Virus record (IMG/VR): IMGVR_UViG_3300036857_000081
Location: 1 to 30,500 of that record
Source: a virus
Direction: 5' to 3' (one strand)
DNA: 30,500 bases
The notes under the pieces are model-generated. The model had not been told where the DNA came from and searched no databases. It saw only the letters and a program-made list of their open reading frames with translations. Shown in pieces: positions 17,205 through 23,645 of this stretch. The position numbers and the translations under genes are program-made. Within the stretch, counting starts at the first letter, position 1. Every line of letters begins with the position of its first letter.

Positions 17205-17386
17205 GTGCGGTCCTCGCGGCAGGTCCAGCCGTCCATCTCCAGCGGTGCCCACAGCAGGGCGGGCCAGCAGAACTGCTCGATCGCGTGGTCGCGGTTGTGC
17301 GCCGCATAGGCCGCGATCGGCTCGCCGTCCTCGGCGCGCACCACGAAGCGGCGCATGCCGTCCGGCAGCGGCTCGGTTCGCGTCAT
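17201..17386 (-). CDS. Small hypothetical protein after terminase
   Basis: 61 aa, ATG at 17386 overlapping the terminase stop (ATGA) and its own stop overlapping the next ATG. It begins MTRTEPLPDGMRRFVVRAED and continues AAYAAHNRDHAIEQFCWPAL with a GWTCRED end, a compact alpha/beta pattern seen in small phage proteins. No family is recognised. Confidence 0.7.
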   Translation of the reverse strand: MTRTEPLPDGMRRFVVRAEDGEPIAAYAAHNRDHAIEQFCWPALLWAPLEMDGWTCREDRT

Positions 17387-18693
17387 GCAGTCATCCACGC
17401 CTGGTTGCCGCGCTCGGTGTTGAGCCGGACGCGCGGCGTTTCTGGCTGCGCCTTCGGCTTCTCGTCGCGCACACCCAGCGCGAGATAGCGCGCCGCATCG
17501 GCGCCGTGGCTCGCGAAGTCATGCACCGGCGATGCCCGCCAGGTCTGTGCCGCCTCGTTCCACTCGCGTCGGTAATGCCGCAGCGCCTTGATCCCATTGG
17601 CGCAGCGCTCGGCATCGAACCAGCACTTCGGCAGGATCATGCGCACCGCGTTGATGCCGTCGGCCACCGAATGCTGCTCGACCTGGCGCGTTGGCCGCAC
17701 GCCCAGCGCATGCAGCGTCTCGGTGCGAGACCGACCGCTGCCCAGCTCGCGCACCGCGGCGTCATGCGGTAGCAGATGTTTTTCGTAGGCATACGGTTTC
17801 GATTGCAACAACCTGACATAGTGATCGAGGCCCACGCCGCTGTCCTCGATGTAGTCGATCAATCGCCACTGACCGCCGCGGGTGATCTGCGCGCACCAGA
17901 TGGCGGTGGCATCGTCAATGCCGAGATCCCAGGCGGTCCACACCTTCAGCGCCGGATCGTGTGGCACAGCGGTGATGCGGCCCTCAGTCTCAGCGTCGTT
18001 CAGCAACTTGCCGTAATACGATCCCGAGTTCGGCGCATTGAACGAGCAGCAAAGTTCCTGCTGAAACTCCTCATCGCTCATCTCCTGCTTCAGCCGCTCG
18101 ATCGCTTCATCGGAGAGCGCGCCGGTTTTCGTGTAGTCGAGCAGGTAGGACGAATAGCCGGCTGTGACACGCGCCCGGTCGTACGCCGCCTGTAGCAGAC
18201 CGCGGCCTTTCGGCGTGCCGGAGCGCACCAGCGTGCCGGAGCGATCCGCCAACATCGGCTCGATCACGAGCGGCACCATTGTCTGTGGCGTATCGTCAAA
18301 CTCGTCGATGATCACTTCGTCGCCGTAGCCGCCGCGCCAACTATCGGGTTTGTCCGCGCCGCCCGCCTGCCAGGTGCCACCATTCGGCAGCCGGATCGCC
18401 ATCTCAGACTTGCGTATCGTCGTGCCCGGAATCGCTTCGGCGGCTTGCACCGCCTGATCCCACAATCCGGTTCGTGTCCACATCACGCTATACGGAAGTA
18501 TATGCACCACGCGCGGCAGTGGTTTTTTTGAGGTGATCGCGACTTTGAGTCCGCGCCAGAGCAATGCGGTTGATTTGCCGGCGCGGCGATGCACGACAGC
18601 GACGATGCGTTTGGCCGGATCGTCGATCAATGGTCTCTGCCAGGCGCGCGGCGCAAACGGCAGTGTGACCTGTTGGCGTCTAGCAGTCGTCAT
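17383..18693 (-). CDS. Terminase large subunit
   Basis: 436 aa, ATG at 18693, overlapping the small-subunit gene by 14 bases. The N-terminal ATPase has Walker A HRRAGKST at residues 35-42 and Walker B VIIDEF at 127-132, followed by GTPKGRG, a coupling motif. The C-terminal nuclease has the RNase H-like acidic motif AWDLGIDDATAIW and a late ASHGADAARYLALG block. It packages DNA into the procapsid and cuts it. The adjacent small gene upstream should supply the recognition subunit. Confidence 0.93.
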   Translation of the reverse strand: MTTARRQQVTLPFAPRAWQRPLIDDPAKRIVAVVHRRAGKSTALLWRGLKVAITSKKPLPRVVHILPYSVMWTRTGLWDQAVQAAEAIPGTTIRKSEMAIRLPNGGTWQAGGADKPDSWRGGYGDEVIIDEFDDTPQTMVPLVIEPMLADRSGTLVRSGTPKGRGLLQAAYDRARVTAGYSSYLLDYTKTGALSDEAIERLKQEMSDEEFQQELCCSFNAPNSGSYYGKLLNDAETEGRITAVPHDPALKVWTAWDLGIDDATAIWCAQITRGGQWRLIDYIEDSGVGLDHYVRLLQSKPYAYEKHLLPHDAAVRELGSGRSRTETLHALGVRPTRQVEQHSVADGINAVRMILPKCWFDAERCANGIKALRHYRREWNEAAQTWRASPVHDFASHGADAARYLALGVRDEKPKAQPETPRVRLNTERGNQAWMTA

Positions 18694-18979
18694 CGGCCTT
18701 GAACGACACAGCAAGCGGTTCGCCGACGATCACAGGCGGCGTTGCATCGGCCCAGCGAAAGTCGACGACCAGCGGACCACCTGCTTCGCCTGTCACCTGC
18801 AACGGCAGCACTTTGCCGAGCAGCGTCATGAATGCTGCGGGGTTCTTGTTCGCCTGGGTTGCGAGGTAGCTTTGGCCGCCGGCGTCATTCAGCGCACCGA
18901 GGATCATCGATTTCACGTCGGCGGTAAGTTGGTTTGGGATGCCCTTGCGGGAGCCGCCGCCTGTCTTTCTGCCTCGCAC
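18680..18979 (-). CDS. Probable terminase small subunit
   Basis: 99 aa, GTG at 18979, nine bases after the upstream stop with GGGA as ribosome site. It begins RGRKTGGGSRKGIPNQLTAD, then helices KSMILGALNDAGGQSYLATQ and NPAAFMTLLGKVLPLQVTGE. The 'GRKxGG-S-KG-PN' basic start and 'FMTLLGKVLP' are common in small proteins directly before TerL. Its end overlaps TerL by 14 bases. The assignment rests on position and pattern; the C-terminal ~40 residues are less typical. Confidence 0.7.
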   Translation of the reverse strand: MRGRKTGGGSRKGIPNQLTADVKSMILGALNDAGGQSYLATQANKNPAAFMTLLGKVLPLQVTGEAGGPLVVDFRWADATPPVIVGEPLAVSFKADDDC

Positions 18980-18988
18980 TTGGTCCCA

Positions 18989-19567
18989 CTATGCGACTAC
19001 CGCGACCATCTCGGGTCGCAGCTCGACCTCGACATGCCCCGCCAAGGCCTCCAGCAGCAGCCGCAACCGGTTCGGCCGGCTCAGCCGCACCACGCCCGCC
19101 CAGCCGGCTAGAGGCCCCTGTAGCACACGCACAGCGGCGCCTGGCGGAGGCAGCGGTTCGTCACGCGGATCATCGACGATGCGACGATCGGAGGTGCGGG
19201 CGATCAGAGCTTCGACGATGCCGTGGGGCACGGGCAGCGGGCGGTCTGTTGTGGTGGTGATCAAGGTCTCGATGCCTCGGCAGCGGTAGATCCGGCGCCA
19301 TTGGTCGCGGCCCGGATCGAACTGCACGAACAAATACCGGCTGAAGAGGGGTTCGATCCGCTCGGTTCGGCGATCGAGATGCAGGGGGAGGAAAACGCAG
19401 AATCCCTTGCCGAGCAGATCGAGTTCGGCGCGGAACTCGCCGGCTGGGTGCGTATGGGCGCAGAACCAGCGATGCGAGCCGCACGGCATAGTGGTCTGAG
19501 TAGGCTGACCCCACATCCGGTTGTGGTTCGTTACCGAATGCGCGGAAAGCGTGTCAAGGGGGGTCAT
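18989..19567 (-). CDS. NusG/RfaH-like transcription elongation (antitermination) factor
   Basis: 192 aa, ATG at 19567 with GGGAGG nine bases upstream; it overlaps the previous gene by 14 bases. Residues about 32-105 form an NGN domain (RWFCAHTHPAGEFRAELDLL, then VFLPLHL, EPLFSRYLFVQFD, WRRIYRCRGIETLI). Residues about 141-192 form a KOW domain (PPGAAVRVLQGPLAGWAGVV ... LLLEALAGHVEVEL). NusG paralogues such as RfaH and LoaP bind paused polymerase and suppress termination in long operons. This gene stands at the head of a late operon of about 19 kb, which fits late antitermination. The first ~30 residues are an unusual extension; Met18 and Met27 are alternative starts. Confidence 0.88.
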   Translation of the reverse strand: MTPLDTLSAHSVTNHNRMWGQPTQTTMPCGSHRWFCAHTHPAGEFRAELDLLGKGFCVFLPLHLDRRTERIEPLFSRYLFVQFDPGRDQWRRIYRCRGIETLITTTTDRPLPVPHGIVEALIARTSDRRIVDDPRDEPLPPPGAAVRVLQGPLAGWAGVVRLSRPNRLRLLLEALAGHVEVELRPEMVAVVA

Positions 19568-19802
19568 GGGCGAGCGCCTCCCTGGCGCGGGCGAGCACGA
19601 GGTGGTCGGGCTCGGGGTGCAACGGGGCAAGACCGTCGTCGGGGTTGGCGTTGAGGCGGCGATGGGCCTCGGCATCGAGGGTGCCGCGGATGTCGCGGAT
19701 GCGATCGCGCACGGCGGCGACCAGGTGGAGCGGCGCGTAGCCGTCCTGCATGGCGGCGAGATCGAGCAGCAGGATCAGCGCGGTGCGCTCGGCTGGGGTC
19801 AT
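19554..19802 (-). CDS. Small hypothetical protein
   Basis: 82 aa, ATG at 19802 overlapping the upstream stop (ATGA). It begins MTPAERTALILLLDLAAMQD, with a helix VAAVRDRIRDIRGTLDAEAH and a C-terminal helix LVLARAREALA. It resembles a small helical bundle; the family is unknown. It shares a transcript with the NusG-like gene, so it may be involved in the late switch. Confidence 0.65.
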   Translation of the reverse strand: MTPAERTALILLLDLAAMQDGYAPLHLVAAVRDRIRDIRGTLDAEAHRRLNANPDDGLAPLHPEPDHLVLARAREALAHDPP

Positions 19803-20008: not shown

Positions 20009-20012
20009 GGCT

Positions 20013-20202
20013 GCGCCAATTCCGCGCCATACTCTGCGCCAATTCGGGCTTTGGACCGCGCCAAGCGCAAGGGGCGGGGAGAGCTGCGCCATTTCATTGT
20101 CGCCAATTCCCCCCCTTGAAAGGGGGAATTGGCGCAATTGGCGCACCCCGCCCTTGGCCGGTCCTTCGCCGCGCCAATTCCGCGCCAATTCCGCGCCAAT
20201 TC
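20013..20202. repeat. Array of GCGCCAATTC repeats between early and late genes
   Basis: Direct copies of GCGCCAATTC lie at 20,013, 20,036, 20,171, 20,182 and 20,193; the last three are spaced exactly 11 bp apart. Variants lie at 20,024 (GCGCCAT), 20,086 (GCGCCATTTC) and 20,101 (CGCCAATTC), and inverted copies at 20,126 (GAATTGGCGC) and 20,135 (CAATTGGCGC). The region has no convincing gene. One-turn spacing suggests a cooperative protein-binding array (iterons, an operator, or an RNA element for antitermination). On the minus transcript it lies upstream of the NusG-like gene. Confidence 0.85.
20101..20134. repeat. 13-bp inverted repeat inside the array
   Basis: CGCCAATTCCCCC (20,101-20,113) pairs perfectly with GGGGGAATTGGCG (20,122-20,134) around an 8-base loop CCTTGAAA. 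It is built from two array units facing each other. No U-run follows on either strand, so it is not a standard terminator; a cruciform or RNA hairpin is possible. Confidence 0.8.
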
Positions 20203-20479
20203 AGACATCATGGGCTTGCCCTTCGATCTGCTGCCGAAGGTGGCGGCGAAGTCCTTTGACGGTGACACCAGGGGCTTTGCAGTCATTGCAGAATCGACGT
20301 GGCGACCTGAACCGGAGGGTAGTCGTCACTTCGAAACTGAGCTGACAGCGCGGACACTCGGTTTGCCAGTGGATGATCCTGGCTGGGGTGCCGACCTTCG
20401 TAGTGCAGTCGGTCATCCTGACAGGACGGTATTCCTGGTAATCCCACTCGACGCAGAAACCTGGGGGAAATTCGTTCAT
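20201..20479 (-). CDS. Small zinc-ribbon-like protein
   Basis: 92 aa, ATG at 20479 overlapping the helicase stop (ATGA). Two CxxC pairs (C42/C45 in ECPRCQL and C64/C67 in FCNDCKAPG) suggest a zinc ribbon, preceded by a strand-rich N-terminus (FCVEWDYQEYRPVRM). It follows the helicase gene and may bind nucleic acid in replication or in the early-to-late switch. Its stop lies at the edge of the repeat array. Confidence 0.7.
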   Translation of the reverse strand: MNEFPPGFCVEWDYQEYRPVRMTDCTTKVGTPARIIHWQTECPRCQLSFEVTTTLRFRSPRRFCNDCKAPGVTVKGLRRHLRQQIEGQAHDV

Positions 20480-21684
20480 GGTGTCGGTCTCTTCGTGTCA
20501 TCGACCCGGACGCCGGTCCGATCCTTGCGCTGCTCACTGTCGTGATAGCTCTCTTGGTAGAGCAGGCCGGATTTGAGCCACGCGGCGATCAACCCGGTCG
20601 CCTGTTTCTCGCTGAAACCGAGAACGTCGACGAGCACCTGACCGGCCCACCGATCGTTTTGTTTGCCCCGCCGATGCGCCGCATAGAGCCAGCCGGCGGC
20701 CGGTTGGGCGATGATGTCCAGTACCTCGTTGAGTTGAGCAGGCGTAGCGTTGGCAGCGAGTGACGGCGGTTCCCACGGCACGATGGCGGCCACCTTGTCG
20801 CCATTCGGGTAAATCGGGTCGCTGACGTTACCCAAAGAAACCTGATCGAGCTTGAACCAGCGCGCCTTGGCCGCCGGTGCCATGTTGCGCTTGGCATCGT
20901 CGAGGCGGACGTATTGCCAGCGATCGTCGGGCGGAATGTTGAACGTCTCGCCGTCCTCGGCGCTCATGGTGGCGAGGAGGAGGCCGACACGGGCGCTGTC
21001 GGTCAGAGCCTTGGCGCCGCGGGCGGCGTCGATGCCGGTCGCGTCGCCCTTGCGGACGTGGTGGACCAGCAGGATGGCGCAGCCGGTGGCGCGTGCCACA
21101 CGCCGCCAGGCGGCGGCGGCTTTGACCATCTGGGGATTGCTGTTCTCTTCGAGGGAGTGTGATTCGGCGAACGGATCGCAGACCAGCACGCCGATCTGCT
21201 TTCTGGTGATCTCCTCGATCAGCAGCGTTTCGTCGGGGTAGACGACATTGAAGCCACCGTCGCTGACCGCGGCCATGGTCAGTCCGCGGCCTTCGCCGTC
21301 GTCCATGTAGAGCCGGCCGCGGAGGTCGTCGGGGGGGATTTGGTGGCGCATCATGATGGCGGCGAGTCGCCGCTCCATCTCTTCGAGCGGATCTTCGAGA
21401 TTGAAGATGGCGGCGTTGACCGGGGCGAAGATGTGGTCGCCGAGATACGCCTTGTAGGCGGCGCAGGAGACCGCAATGCCCATGGCGTAGGCGGATTTGC
21501 CGGTGCCGCCGGGGGCTATCAGCACGGTGACATATCCTCGGACGAGCTGCGTGCCATAGAGCCACTGGCGCGGCGGGATGGTGGTGGGATCAGGCAGGCG
21601 CGCTTCATGCAGCACGAGCGGACGTGGCGGCTCCTGCTTGGCCTCGCTGCCTTCATAGAGCGTCCAGATGTTGTCATGGCGCAC
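20476..21684 (-). CDS. RepA/AAA_25-type replicative helicase
   Basis: 402 aa, GTG at 21684, overlapping the upstream gene by 11 bases. The RecA-like core has Walker A APGGTGKS (residues 57-64), Walker B VLVCDP (166-171), and a LVHHVRKG motif like the sensor strand of RSF1010 RepA-type hexameric helicases. FNLEDPLEEMERRL is the catalytic Glu region of that family. The C-terminal ~100 residues (TPAQLNEVLDIIAQPA ... LGFSEKQATGLIAAWLKSGL) look like a winged-helix domain. It probably unwinds phage DNA at replication and may pair with the preceding gene product. Confidence 0.85.
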   Translation of the reverse strand: MRHDNIWTLYEGSEAKQEPPRPLVLHEARLPDPTTIPPRQWLYGTQLVRGYVTVLIAPGGTGKSAYAMGIAVSCAAYKAYLGDHIFAPVNAAIFNLEDPLEEMERRLAAIMMRHQIPPDDLRGRLYMDDGEGRGLTMAAVSDGGFNVVYPDETLLIEEITRKQIGVLVCDPFAESHSLEENSNPQMVKAAAAWRRVARATGCAILLVHHVRKGDATGIDAARGAKALTDSARVGLLLATMSAEDGETFNIPPDDRWQYVRLDDAKRNMAPAAKARWFKLDQVSLGNVSDPIYPNGDKVAAIVPWEPPSLAANATPAQLNEVLDIIAQPAAGWLYAAHRRGKQNDRWAGQVLVDVLGFSEKQATGLIAAWLKSGLLYQESYHDSEQRKDRTGVRVDDTKRPTP

Positions 21685-22174: not shown

Positions 22175-22596
22175 GCACACCCCCTGAGCGGCACACCCCA
22201 GCCGGCGAGCGCGGCCAGCACCTGGGCCAGGCTCTCGCACACCGCGATGCGCAGCCCCGCCGCCTCCAACCTGGGAAACACCTCACGCTGCCCCTCGACC
22301 ATCCGCCGCCCGCCCTTGCGCGTCGGCACCAGGCGCGACCGCGACAGCGTCCCGCCCGGCCGTTTCAGCTCAATCCCATAGGCGTAATGATGGAGCACGA
22401 TCAGATCGGGCCAGCCGCGGGCCACACCGAGGCGCGCGAGCTTCGCCGCCTGCTGGCCGGTCAGGCGCACGTGGCCGATCGGCAGCGTGGTCCACATCGC
22501 CGGCGGCAGCAGCAGGCGGTCGAGCGCGGTCGCCACCATCTCATGGATGTCGGTCTCGTCGGGCCGGTATGGGGTGAGGCGGAGCGCGGCGCTCAT
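22171..22596 (-). CDS. VRR-NUC-type nuclease
   Basis: 141 aa, ATG at 22596 overlapping the methylase stop (ATGA). The PD-(D/E)xK core is clear: RGWPDLIVL with Asp64, then YGIELKRPGG with Glu76 and Lys78, then GQREVFPRLEAAGLRIAV with the Gln that follows the core in VRR-NUC proteins. Length fits stand-alone phage VRR-NUC enzymes (about 100-150 aa), thought to act on branched DNA during replication or packaging. High confidence in fold, lower in exact substrate. Confidence 0.85.
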   Translation of the reverse strand: MSAALRLTPYRPDETDIHEMVATALDRLLLPPAMWTTLPIGHVRLTGQQAAKLARLGVARGWPDLIVLHHYAYGIELKRPGGTLSRSRLVPTRKGGRRMVEGQREVFPRLEAAGLRIAVCESLAQVLAALAGWGVPLRGCA

Positions 22597-23645
22597 TCGG
22601 CCGCCTCCGCGAACAGATCGCGCAGCGGCTGATCGTAGGCATCATCCCAGGAGAACAGGTCCGGCTGTCTGACCGGCAGGCAGGCGGGCGAAAACCAGAT
22701 GCACTCCTTGTCGGTGGTCTGCCCGCCGGAATAGGTCAGCCGCCCGCGATCCCACTGCATCGGATCCCAGCTAGGCAGATCGTAGTCGCCGACGTGGCCG
22801 CAGAGCGCGATGCGGAGATGAGCGTTGTCGCGCGCCCATGCCTCGACCGCATCGGCGACGGACGCCGCGTTGCCGTAGTAGAGCTTTTCGTATGAGCGAT
22901 AGGGCGGATCGAGGAAGATGGCGGTATCAGCACCGCCGAAATGATTGTTGAGGCAGCGTGTCCAGTCACCATGGACAACGCGCACGCGCTCCAGCCGATT
23001 GGCCAGCTTGTGCAGCCAGCGCCAAGCCGCACGACCGGCGGAGGTCAGGAGGGCGTCGCCCATGCCAGCATTGCTGGCGTGCGGCACCTGCCCGACCGCC
23101 TGGATGCCCCTGCCAGCATCGCTGGCGTGCGGCACCTTCCCGACCGCCTGGATGCCCCTGCCAGCAGAGGTGGCGTCGATACCTTCCTGACCGCCTAGAT
23201 GCCTCTCCCAGCATTGCCGGCGTGCGGCACCTGCCCGATCCCACTCGCACCAGCCAGAGCCGATCCAGCAGCACTGTCCCCACAGCCACCAGCCGGCCAC
23301 CTTGGCGTCGCCAGGCCAGTCGCAATTCTGCAATTCGGCGCCAATCCGCTCGCGCTGCGCCATCAACCAGACATGCCGCGCGCCGAGGTCGATATGAGAC
23401 ACCGGATAGTCCGCCCATGCGGCCACGACTGCGGGCTGGTGCCGCACGGCGCGCCAGAAGTTCGCGATGAAGCCGGAGGCATCGCAGATCACCTCCAGCG
23501 CCGCGGGGGTGGGCTTGGCCAGTAACACCGCCGCAGAGCCGCAGAACGGCTCGATGTATTGTGCCGGGGCGCCGAGACGGACCCACACATCGGCGGCCAC
23601 AGACCGCTTGCCGCCGAAATAGGGGAAGGGCGCCAGCAAGCTCAT
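22593..23645 (-). CDS. D12-class DNA adenine methylase (Dam-like)
   Basis: 350 aa, ATG at 23645 overlapping the upstream stop. Motif I is YFGGKRS (FGGK at residues 10-13), IEPFCGSAAVLL follows, and catalytic motif IV is DPPY at residues 246-249 in AIFLDPPYRSYEKLYYG. It transfers a methyl group to adenine N6, likely to protect phage DNA or regulate replication; the target site cannot be read from sequence. Residues about 140-205 are an insert encoded by a 48-bp tandem repeat (GRGIQAVGKVPHASDA, GRGIQAVGQVPHASNA). Comparable 'GRGV-RQLPHLG-AGRG' inserts are, to my knowledge, seen in other phage D12 methylases. Confidence 0.88.
   Translation of the reverse strand: MSLLAPFPYFGGKRSVAADVWVRLGAPAQYIEPFCGSAAVLLAKPTPAALEVICDASGFIANFWRAVRHQPAVVAAWADYPVSHIDLGARHVWLMAQRERIGAELQNCDWPGDAKVAGWWLWGQCCWIGSGWCEWDRAGAARRQCWERHLGGQEGIDATSAGRGIQAVGKVPHASDAGRGIQAVGQVPHASNAGMGDALLTSAGRAAWRWLHKLANRLERVRVVHGDWTRCLNNHFGGADTAIFLDPPYRSYEKLYYGNAASVADAVEAWARDNAHLRIALCGHVGDYDLPSWDPMQWDRGRLTYSGGQTTDKECIWFSPACLPVRQPDLFSWDDAYDQPLRDLFAEAAE
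23064..23240 (-). repeat. 48-bp tandem repeat inside the methylase gene
   Basis: Copies start at 23,064, 23,112, 23,160 and 23,207. The first two are 48 bp and nearly identical (16 codons each); the third is diverged and one base short (47 bp); the fourth is partial. The coding strand therefore reads the partial fourth copy in a different frame (AGAARRQCWERHLGGQ) from the later copies (VPHASDAGRGIQAVG). In the usual frame the fourth copy would meet a TAG. Confidence 0.85.

Follow-up and report, generated by a model that had tools for sequence, protein, structure and literature searches.

A repeat array behind an RSF1010-RepA-like helicase gene is a probable iteron origin of replication in phages and phage-plasmids

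An array of about ten short repeats lies in a window of 30,500 nucleotides, a complete 30.5-kb IMG/VR virus record. We consider that it is most probably a phage replication origin, whose iterons would be recognized by the adjacent RSF1010-RepA-like helicase through that protein's own winged helix. The array has a constant place and a shared architecture in related loci, its unit changes with the sequence of the winged helix, and in one locus a swapped domain is accompanied by the unit of its donor. An iteron origin beside the helicase gene was one of the roles proposed in a preliminary description of the window, and this proposal is now strongly supported, as the array accompanies the helicase across phages and phage-plasmids and the unit co-varies with the DNA-binding domain. 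The record is from a temperate P22-like podovirus: its minus strand encodes portal, coat, scaffold and tail proteins of the P22 type, and its plus strand an integrase.

Results

The repeat array and its neighborhood

The unit GCGCCAATTC has six exact copies in the 30.5-kb record, all of them inside positions 20013-20202 (starts at 20013, 20036, 20126 (inverted), 20171, 20182 and 20193), while 100 dinucleotide shuffles gave a mean of 0.13 copies and a maximum of 1. About five variants lie with them between two genes, namely three one-mismatch copies (20086, 20100 and, inverted, 20135) and two weaker ones identified by eye (20024, GCGCCATACT; 20058, GCGCCAAGCG), so the array of about ten copies described before is real. 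The unit is approximately 10 bp long and is spaced by 11-12 bp around one long stem-loop. Three copies exactly 11 bp apart (20171, 20182, 20193) and a perfect 13-bp inverted repeat (20101-20113 / 20122-20134) are present as had been reported. The description of the stretch as gene-free also holds effectively, since the stop codon of ORF 20201-20479(-) bounds it on one side and the start codon of the following minus-strand ORF (ATG near 20009) on the other; the helicase gene lies on the adjacent side (20476-21684), and the NusG-like gene (PF02357) follows about 450 bp downstream. Neither BLASTN against GenBank phages nor Rfam returned a match for the array region. The coordinates are collected in Table 1.

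Table 1. Features of the array and of the genes around it.
Feature	Position	Strand	Remarks
Terminase large subunit gene	17383-18714		Less than 3 kb from the array
NusG-like protein	18989..19675	-	PF02357, E 1.7e-10; neighbor of the array, not its reader
Distal triplet	20013-20022, 20024-20033 (degenerate), 20036-20045	-	11-12 bp apart
Outer-stem region flanking the hairpin, GGGCGGGG / CCCCGCCC	20056..20166	.	Arm pairing compared within and between loci
Stem-loop	20086..20144	-	Inverted copies 20126-20135 and 20135-20144 opposite direct copies 20086-20095 and 20100-20109
Helicase-proximal triplet (GAATTGGCGC on the minus strand)	20171-20180, 20182-20191, 20193-20202	-	Exactly 11 bp apart
Small ORF, 92 aa, CxxC motifs	20201..20479	-	Between helicase and array
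C-terminal winged-helix domain, residues 296-402	20476..20799	-	Proposed reader of the unit; AlphaFold and co-variation
RSF1010-RepA-like (AAA_25) helicase, 402 aa	20476..21684	-	Pfam AAA_25, E 2.9e-33

The array is found between early-type and late-type genes, 5′ of the next gene in its operon, and the order on the minus strand is helicase, 92-aa ORF, array, short ORF and NusG-like gene. A domain search of the 92-aa ORF gave zinc-finger matches that were all below threshold. This ORF is probably an insertion that lies outside the origin proper, because most relatives have the array immediately behind the helicase gene. A comparable displacement, of about 260-277 bp, is seen in two other loci, L052 and L055, and small genes may thus have been inserted at this place repeatedly. 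Elsewhere in the window, ORF 22593-23645(-) (350 aa) has a D12-type adenine methyltransferase match that covers its first 60-80 residues only; the domain is split or divergent.

The helicase has a predicted C-terminal winged helix

The only sequence match of the helicase in the PDB is RSF1010 RepA (1g8y, E 3.9e-15), over residues 37-279, and the model of the full-length protein has a pLDDT of 89.5. The AlphaFold model of the C-terminal domain (pLDDT 86.8) consists of helices followed by two strands as the wing, so that roughly 100 residues beyond the RepA match are modeled as a winged helix with good confidence. VIA-align matched this domain to a range of winged helices, all with modest Z scores (SAMD1 WH, 7.7; BLM RQC, 6.9; also MepR, BlaI/MecI and DnaD). 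We claim no specific family for it, because many unrelated winged helices score similarly and modestly. A Pfam search found no primase domain on the helicase.

The array follows the helicase gene in related phages and phage-plasmids

An exact search for two units one base apart identified five other viral contigs, all of which carry an array downstream of a homologous helicase gene that ends either just before the array or a few hundred bases before it. A search with a helicase alignment, built from array-bearing loci, gave 80 viral and 18 genome-contig loci, in which the named hosts are mostly Acetobacteraceae and other alphaproteobacteria. Among the close relatives, nearly all show an array behind the stop codon of the helicase gene, with differing words (AATTGGCGCA, AACCGTAGCA, TTGTGGCGCA, AAGTGCTGC and others, more than 20 in total), and the array is not confined to this phage. 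The statement of the preliminary description that no described element has this unit may hold for the sequence as such, but it misses that the unit is lineage-specific and sits on a shared architecture.

Arrays were then scored with no sequence assumed, as any single 8-mer with four or more occurrences in the 300 bp that follow the helicase stop. By this measure, 64 of 85 distinct RepA-like helicase loci have an array, against 72 of 4929 control windows from the same loci. A held-out second scan gave 21 of 27 new loci against 4 of 554 control windows; these 27 loci, mostly with helicases 34-39% identical, had been used to build nothing. The other 21 of the 85 loci have fewer than four copies. 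Among them, the array is displaced or degenerate in the window itself and in L052, L055, L089, L145 and L147, and some relatives are apparently without an array (L037, L051, L076, L077, L080, L101, L148 and L151-L153).

Read in the sense of the helicase gene, the usual layout opens with two or three direct copies at a spacing of 11-12 bp, continues with a hairpin in which one or two inverted copies pair with direct copies, and closes with two or three further direct copies. The hairpin starts about 45-110 bp after the helicase stop, with similar offsets whatever the unit. The array of the window has this layout too, but the 92-aa ORF shifts it by about 270 bp. Different genes come after the array, and the helicase is the constant neighbor. 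Across 18 phage records (approximately 700 kb), 95 copies of the unit fall in the array zones and 11 elsewhere. Arrays near the helicase are also found in Microcystis phage Mae-Yong1326-1 and Rhodoferax phage P26218. At the extreme end of another contig (L131:1-330), GCCGGACA units occur in the usual layout with the upstream gene cut off. The helicase match of L072:5001-6110 (contig G021) contains one in-frame TGA, and may be a decayed copy or contain a recoded or misread codon.

Circular plasmids of PLSDB likewise carry the array after the helicase gene, among them pVL1_6 of Methylobacterium indicum (with a tape-measure gene), plasmid 1 of Rhodoplanes serenus (terminase, portal and NusG) and Microvirga plasmids; two of the plasmids have annotated phage genes. 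In three plasmids a gene for a toprim protein lies directly 5′ of the helicase gene, and the array therefore sits in a replication module. Three circular Methylobacterium and Microvirga plasmids (L144, L145 and L147), of which one has a tape-measure gene, carry the toprim gene, the RepA-like helicase gene and the array in a row, an arrangement that looks like a compact phage-plasmid replicon.

The unit changes with the winged helix

We compared the divergence of the units with that of the two parts of the helicase in partial Mantel tests, after excluding a few loci with unreliable automatic unit calls. The unit is correlated with the C-terminal domain given the ATPase (r 0.348, p 0.0005; reached in 0 of 2000 permutations), although such permutations leave some phylogenetic structure, so that co-evolution and shared ancestry are not fully separated by this test. 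In the reverse control, unit against ATPase given the C-terminal domain, r was -0.10. The strongest co-varying column is residue 387, and the other high columns of the C-terminal domain (385, 386, 345, 347 and 339) belong to the wing and the surroundings of the start of the second helix; columns 97, 270 and 227 of the ATPase also rank high.

Individual loci provide stronger evidence than the Mantel test. On a tree of the ATPase domain, L052 groups with the TTATGGCGC/TTGTGGCGC clade: its ATPase is 78-80% identical to those of phages with TTATGGCGC/TTGTGGCGC-type units, with which its C-terminal domain shares 33-41%. This C-terminal domain is, in turn, 80% identical to those of L079 and L011, to which the ATPase is 55-56% identical, and the unit of L052 is theirs, AATTGGCGC. 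L052 is thus a phage with a swapped C-terminal domain that carries the unit of the donor. Units also differ between sister loci in which the ATPase is better conserved than the C-terminal domain: L018/L079 (90% and 57% identical, respectively), L030/L033 (93% and 68%) and L091/L092 (98% and 79%). The motif RRHPATRW is common to all seven phages of the set with a TTGTGGCG unit, which are spread over two ATPase clades. This joint change of the word and of the DNA-binding tail suggests that the helicase itself locates the place where it starts.

A conserved stem-loop of variable sequence

The hairpin fold of the window has counterparts in 62 other loci, a few of them with poor boundaries (e.g., L024, L040, L047, L057 and L086). 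The outer arms pair with -20.9 kcal/mol within a locus and with -16.5 kcal/mol between loci (permutation p 0.0002), and the stem-loop is therefore kept while its sequence changes. Selection on an RNA would favor G-U pairs; the single mismatches inside the stems are 15 G-T and 19 A-C, which in these small numbers is no G-U excess, and a role as DNA, in a cruciform or a dyad, thus fits better. An RNA structure as the conserved form was rejected on these mismatch counts, even though the outer stems co-vary.

Other roles for the array

The preliminary description had also offered the array as an RNA loading element, on the minus transcript, for the NusG-like factor, which would in this way be recruited to late transcription. 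Transcription of the operon includes the array, which can fold into a strong hairpin, and the NusG-like gene, which lies about 450 bp downstream in the window, is found downstream of the array in 27 loci (a scan with the NusG protein of the window alone gave no relatives, while alignment A2 did). Nevertheless, 40 array loci have no NusG gene in at least 3 kb of available downstream sequence. Loci selected by NusG have the array wherever the helicase is also present, and most of those without the helicase have none; two exceptions, the NusG-bearing phages L117 (2758-3823) and L141 (329-1706), have no RepA-like helicase but short repeats within an ORF that was identified by eye as a putative lambda-O/DnaD-type initiator gene, and these repeats are probably a different type of origin. 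Moreover, in the same 27 loci the unit follows the C-terminal domain of the helicase (partial r 0.46, p 0.0005) and not NusG (partial r -0.02, p 0.56). NusG was rejected as the reader of the array on both co-occurrence and co-variation, and with the stem mismatches also lacking a G-U excess, recruitment of this factor is now disfavored, and we regard it as very unlikely.

A DNA operator, either for a phage regulator or as an autoregulatory site through which the helicase controls the downstream genes, is somewhat less improbable, though still unlikely. The position of the array between early-type and late-type genes, 5′ of the next gene of the operon, would suit such a site, and a helicase that binds DNA might in addition act as a transcriptional repressor where it binds. 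However, the array follows the helicase gene regardless of which gene comes next, and an operator alone leaves the flanking triplets and the long co-varying stem-loop unexplained. As the unit hardly occurs outside the array zones, the late operator proposed earlier is retained as a possible secondary role and not beyond that. The terminase gene lies within 3 kb of the array in the window record, as would be necessary for a packaging (pac) or recombination site near the terminase genes, but the genes after the array vary around a constant helicase and changes of the unit track the helicase domain, and we rate this explanation slightly lower still than that of NusG. Finally, the presence of inverted copies among the repeats is reminiscent of dispersed intergenic elements; a functionless mobile or dispersed repeat of the REP or MITE type is, however, contradicted by the placement statistics, as each genome has one cluster in a fixed place with almost no copies elsewhere and different units share one layout, and it can practically be dismissed.

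Discussion

We infer specific binding of the helicase to the array, loading of the helicase, origin activity and a role of the stem-loop. In such an origin, the added C-terminal winged helix would recognize the 10-bp unit, and the copies that flank the stem-loop, with their phasing of 11-12 bp, would set the places of helicase subunits along the DNA. Extrusion or melting of the stem-loop, with its inverted copies, would provide the single strand for assembly of the ring, and a phage or host primase would prime synthesis. In every lineage, winged helix and unit would be matched to each other, and the two could move as a module. No primase was recognized among the window proteins scanned. The minimum of the cumulative GC skew falls within 300 bp of the array in only 3 of 18 records (L060, L034 and L021), and an AT-rich unwinding element was looked for and not found.

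The oriV of RSF1010 (IncQ) shares with these loci a homologous helicase and the presence of iterons and hairpins at the origin. Its iterons are, however, 20 bp long and accompanied by two ssi hairpins, whereas here a unit of about 10 bp is spaced by 11-12 bp around one long stem-loop, and the match to RepA ends at residue 279 and is followed by a winged helix. In RSF1010, a separate protein, RepC, recognizes the iterons, and RepB′ primes at the ssi stem-loops (PMC4234260). Neither a separate RepC initiator nor a RepB′ primase was recognized among the window proteins scanned, where divergent ones could be missed.

The closest described mechanism is that of the SaPI Rep protein, whose C-terminal domain is stated to recognize iterons directly downstream of its own gene (PMC7581432). 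In both the SaPI Rep/ori and the SCCmec Cch2/ori pairs, short iterons in this position are recognized by an initiator helicase. In contrast to both, the motor here is RSF1010-RepA-like (AAA_25) and not of the SaPI/Cch type, a long stem-loop lies between the iterons, and the carriers are tailed phages and phage-plasmids, mostly alphaproteobacterial where a host is named. In pRN1, a stem-loop 3′ of the gene for a winged-helix replication protein can be essential for replication (PMC4234260). Replicons of the pRN1/BIP-1 type share with these loci a large stem-loop 3′ of the replication gene, a product that combines a helicase with a C-terminal winged helix, and a changing stem sequence on a constant structure (PMC4234260); pRN1 differs in its helicase, which is of the SF3 type and fused to a primase, and in the absence of iterons from its origin, while here iterons flank the stem-loop next to the gene of an AAA_25 helicase. 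The alpha protein of phage P4 is also a multifunctional helicase protein that binds repeats at its own origin via a winged helix (PMC4234260), but it has a Toprim-type primase, and no primase domain was found on the present helicase. In kind, then, the array belongs with the iteron origins, and the combination of a RepA-type helicase with its own winged helix, iterons that flank a stem-loop, and lineage-specific words was not found described. The literature searched, mostly outside subscription journals, contained no description of the array, and an earlier description is possible.

There is, in our estimate, an even chance that these loci represent a widespread form of one-protein initiation, in which the hexameric helicase, of RepA type, would both initiate replication and load itself, and the winged helix and the iteron/stem-loop origin form a swappable, fast-diversifying pair with more than 20 words. 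Such a pair would amount to a natural code between winged-helix residues and 10-bp words, and possibly to incompatibility groups among phages and phage-plasmids. If the array is the origin, a simple rule, to look just 3′ of the RepA-like helicase gene, would locate the replication origin throughout a large and otherwise unstudied group of phages and phage-plasmids. The more than 20 words, together with sister loci that differ in word and domain at once, would be a natural data set of unusual richness on how a winged helix reads DNA. An origin of this kind would also suggest that hexameric helicases like RSF1010 RepA are able to bind the origin themselves as initiators, and that exchange moves origin and reader together, as one module.
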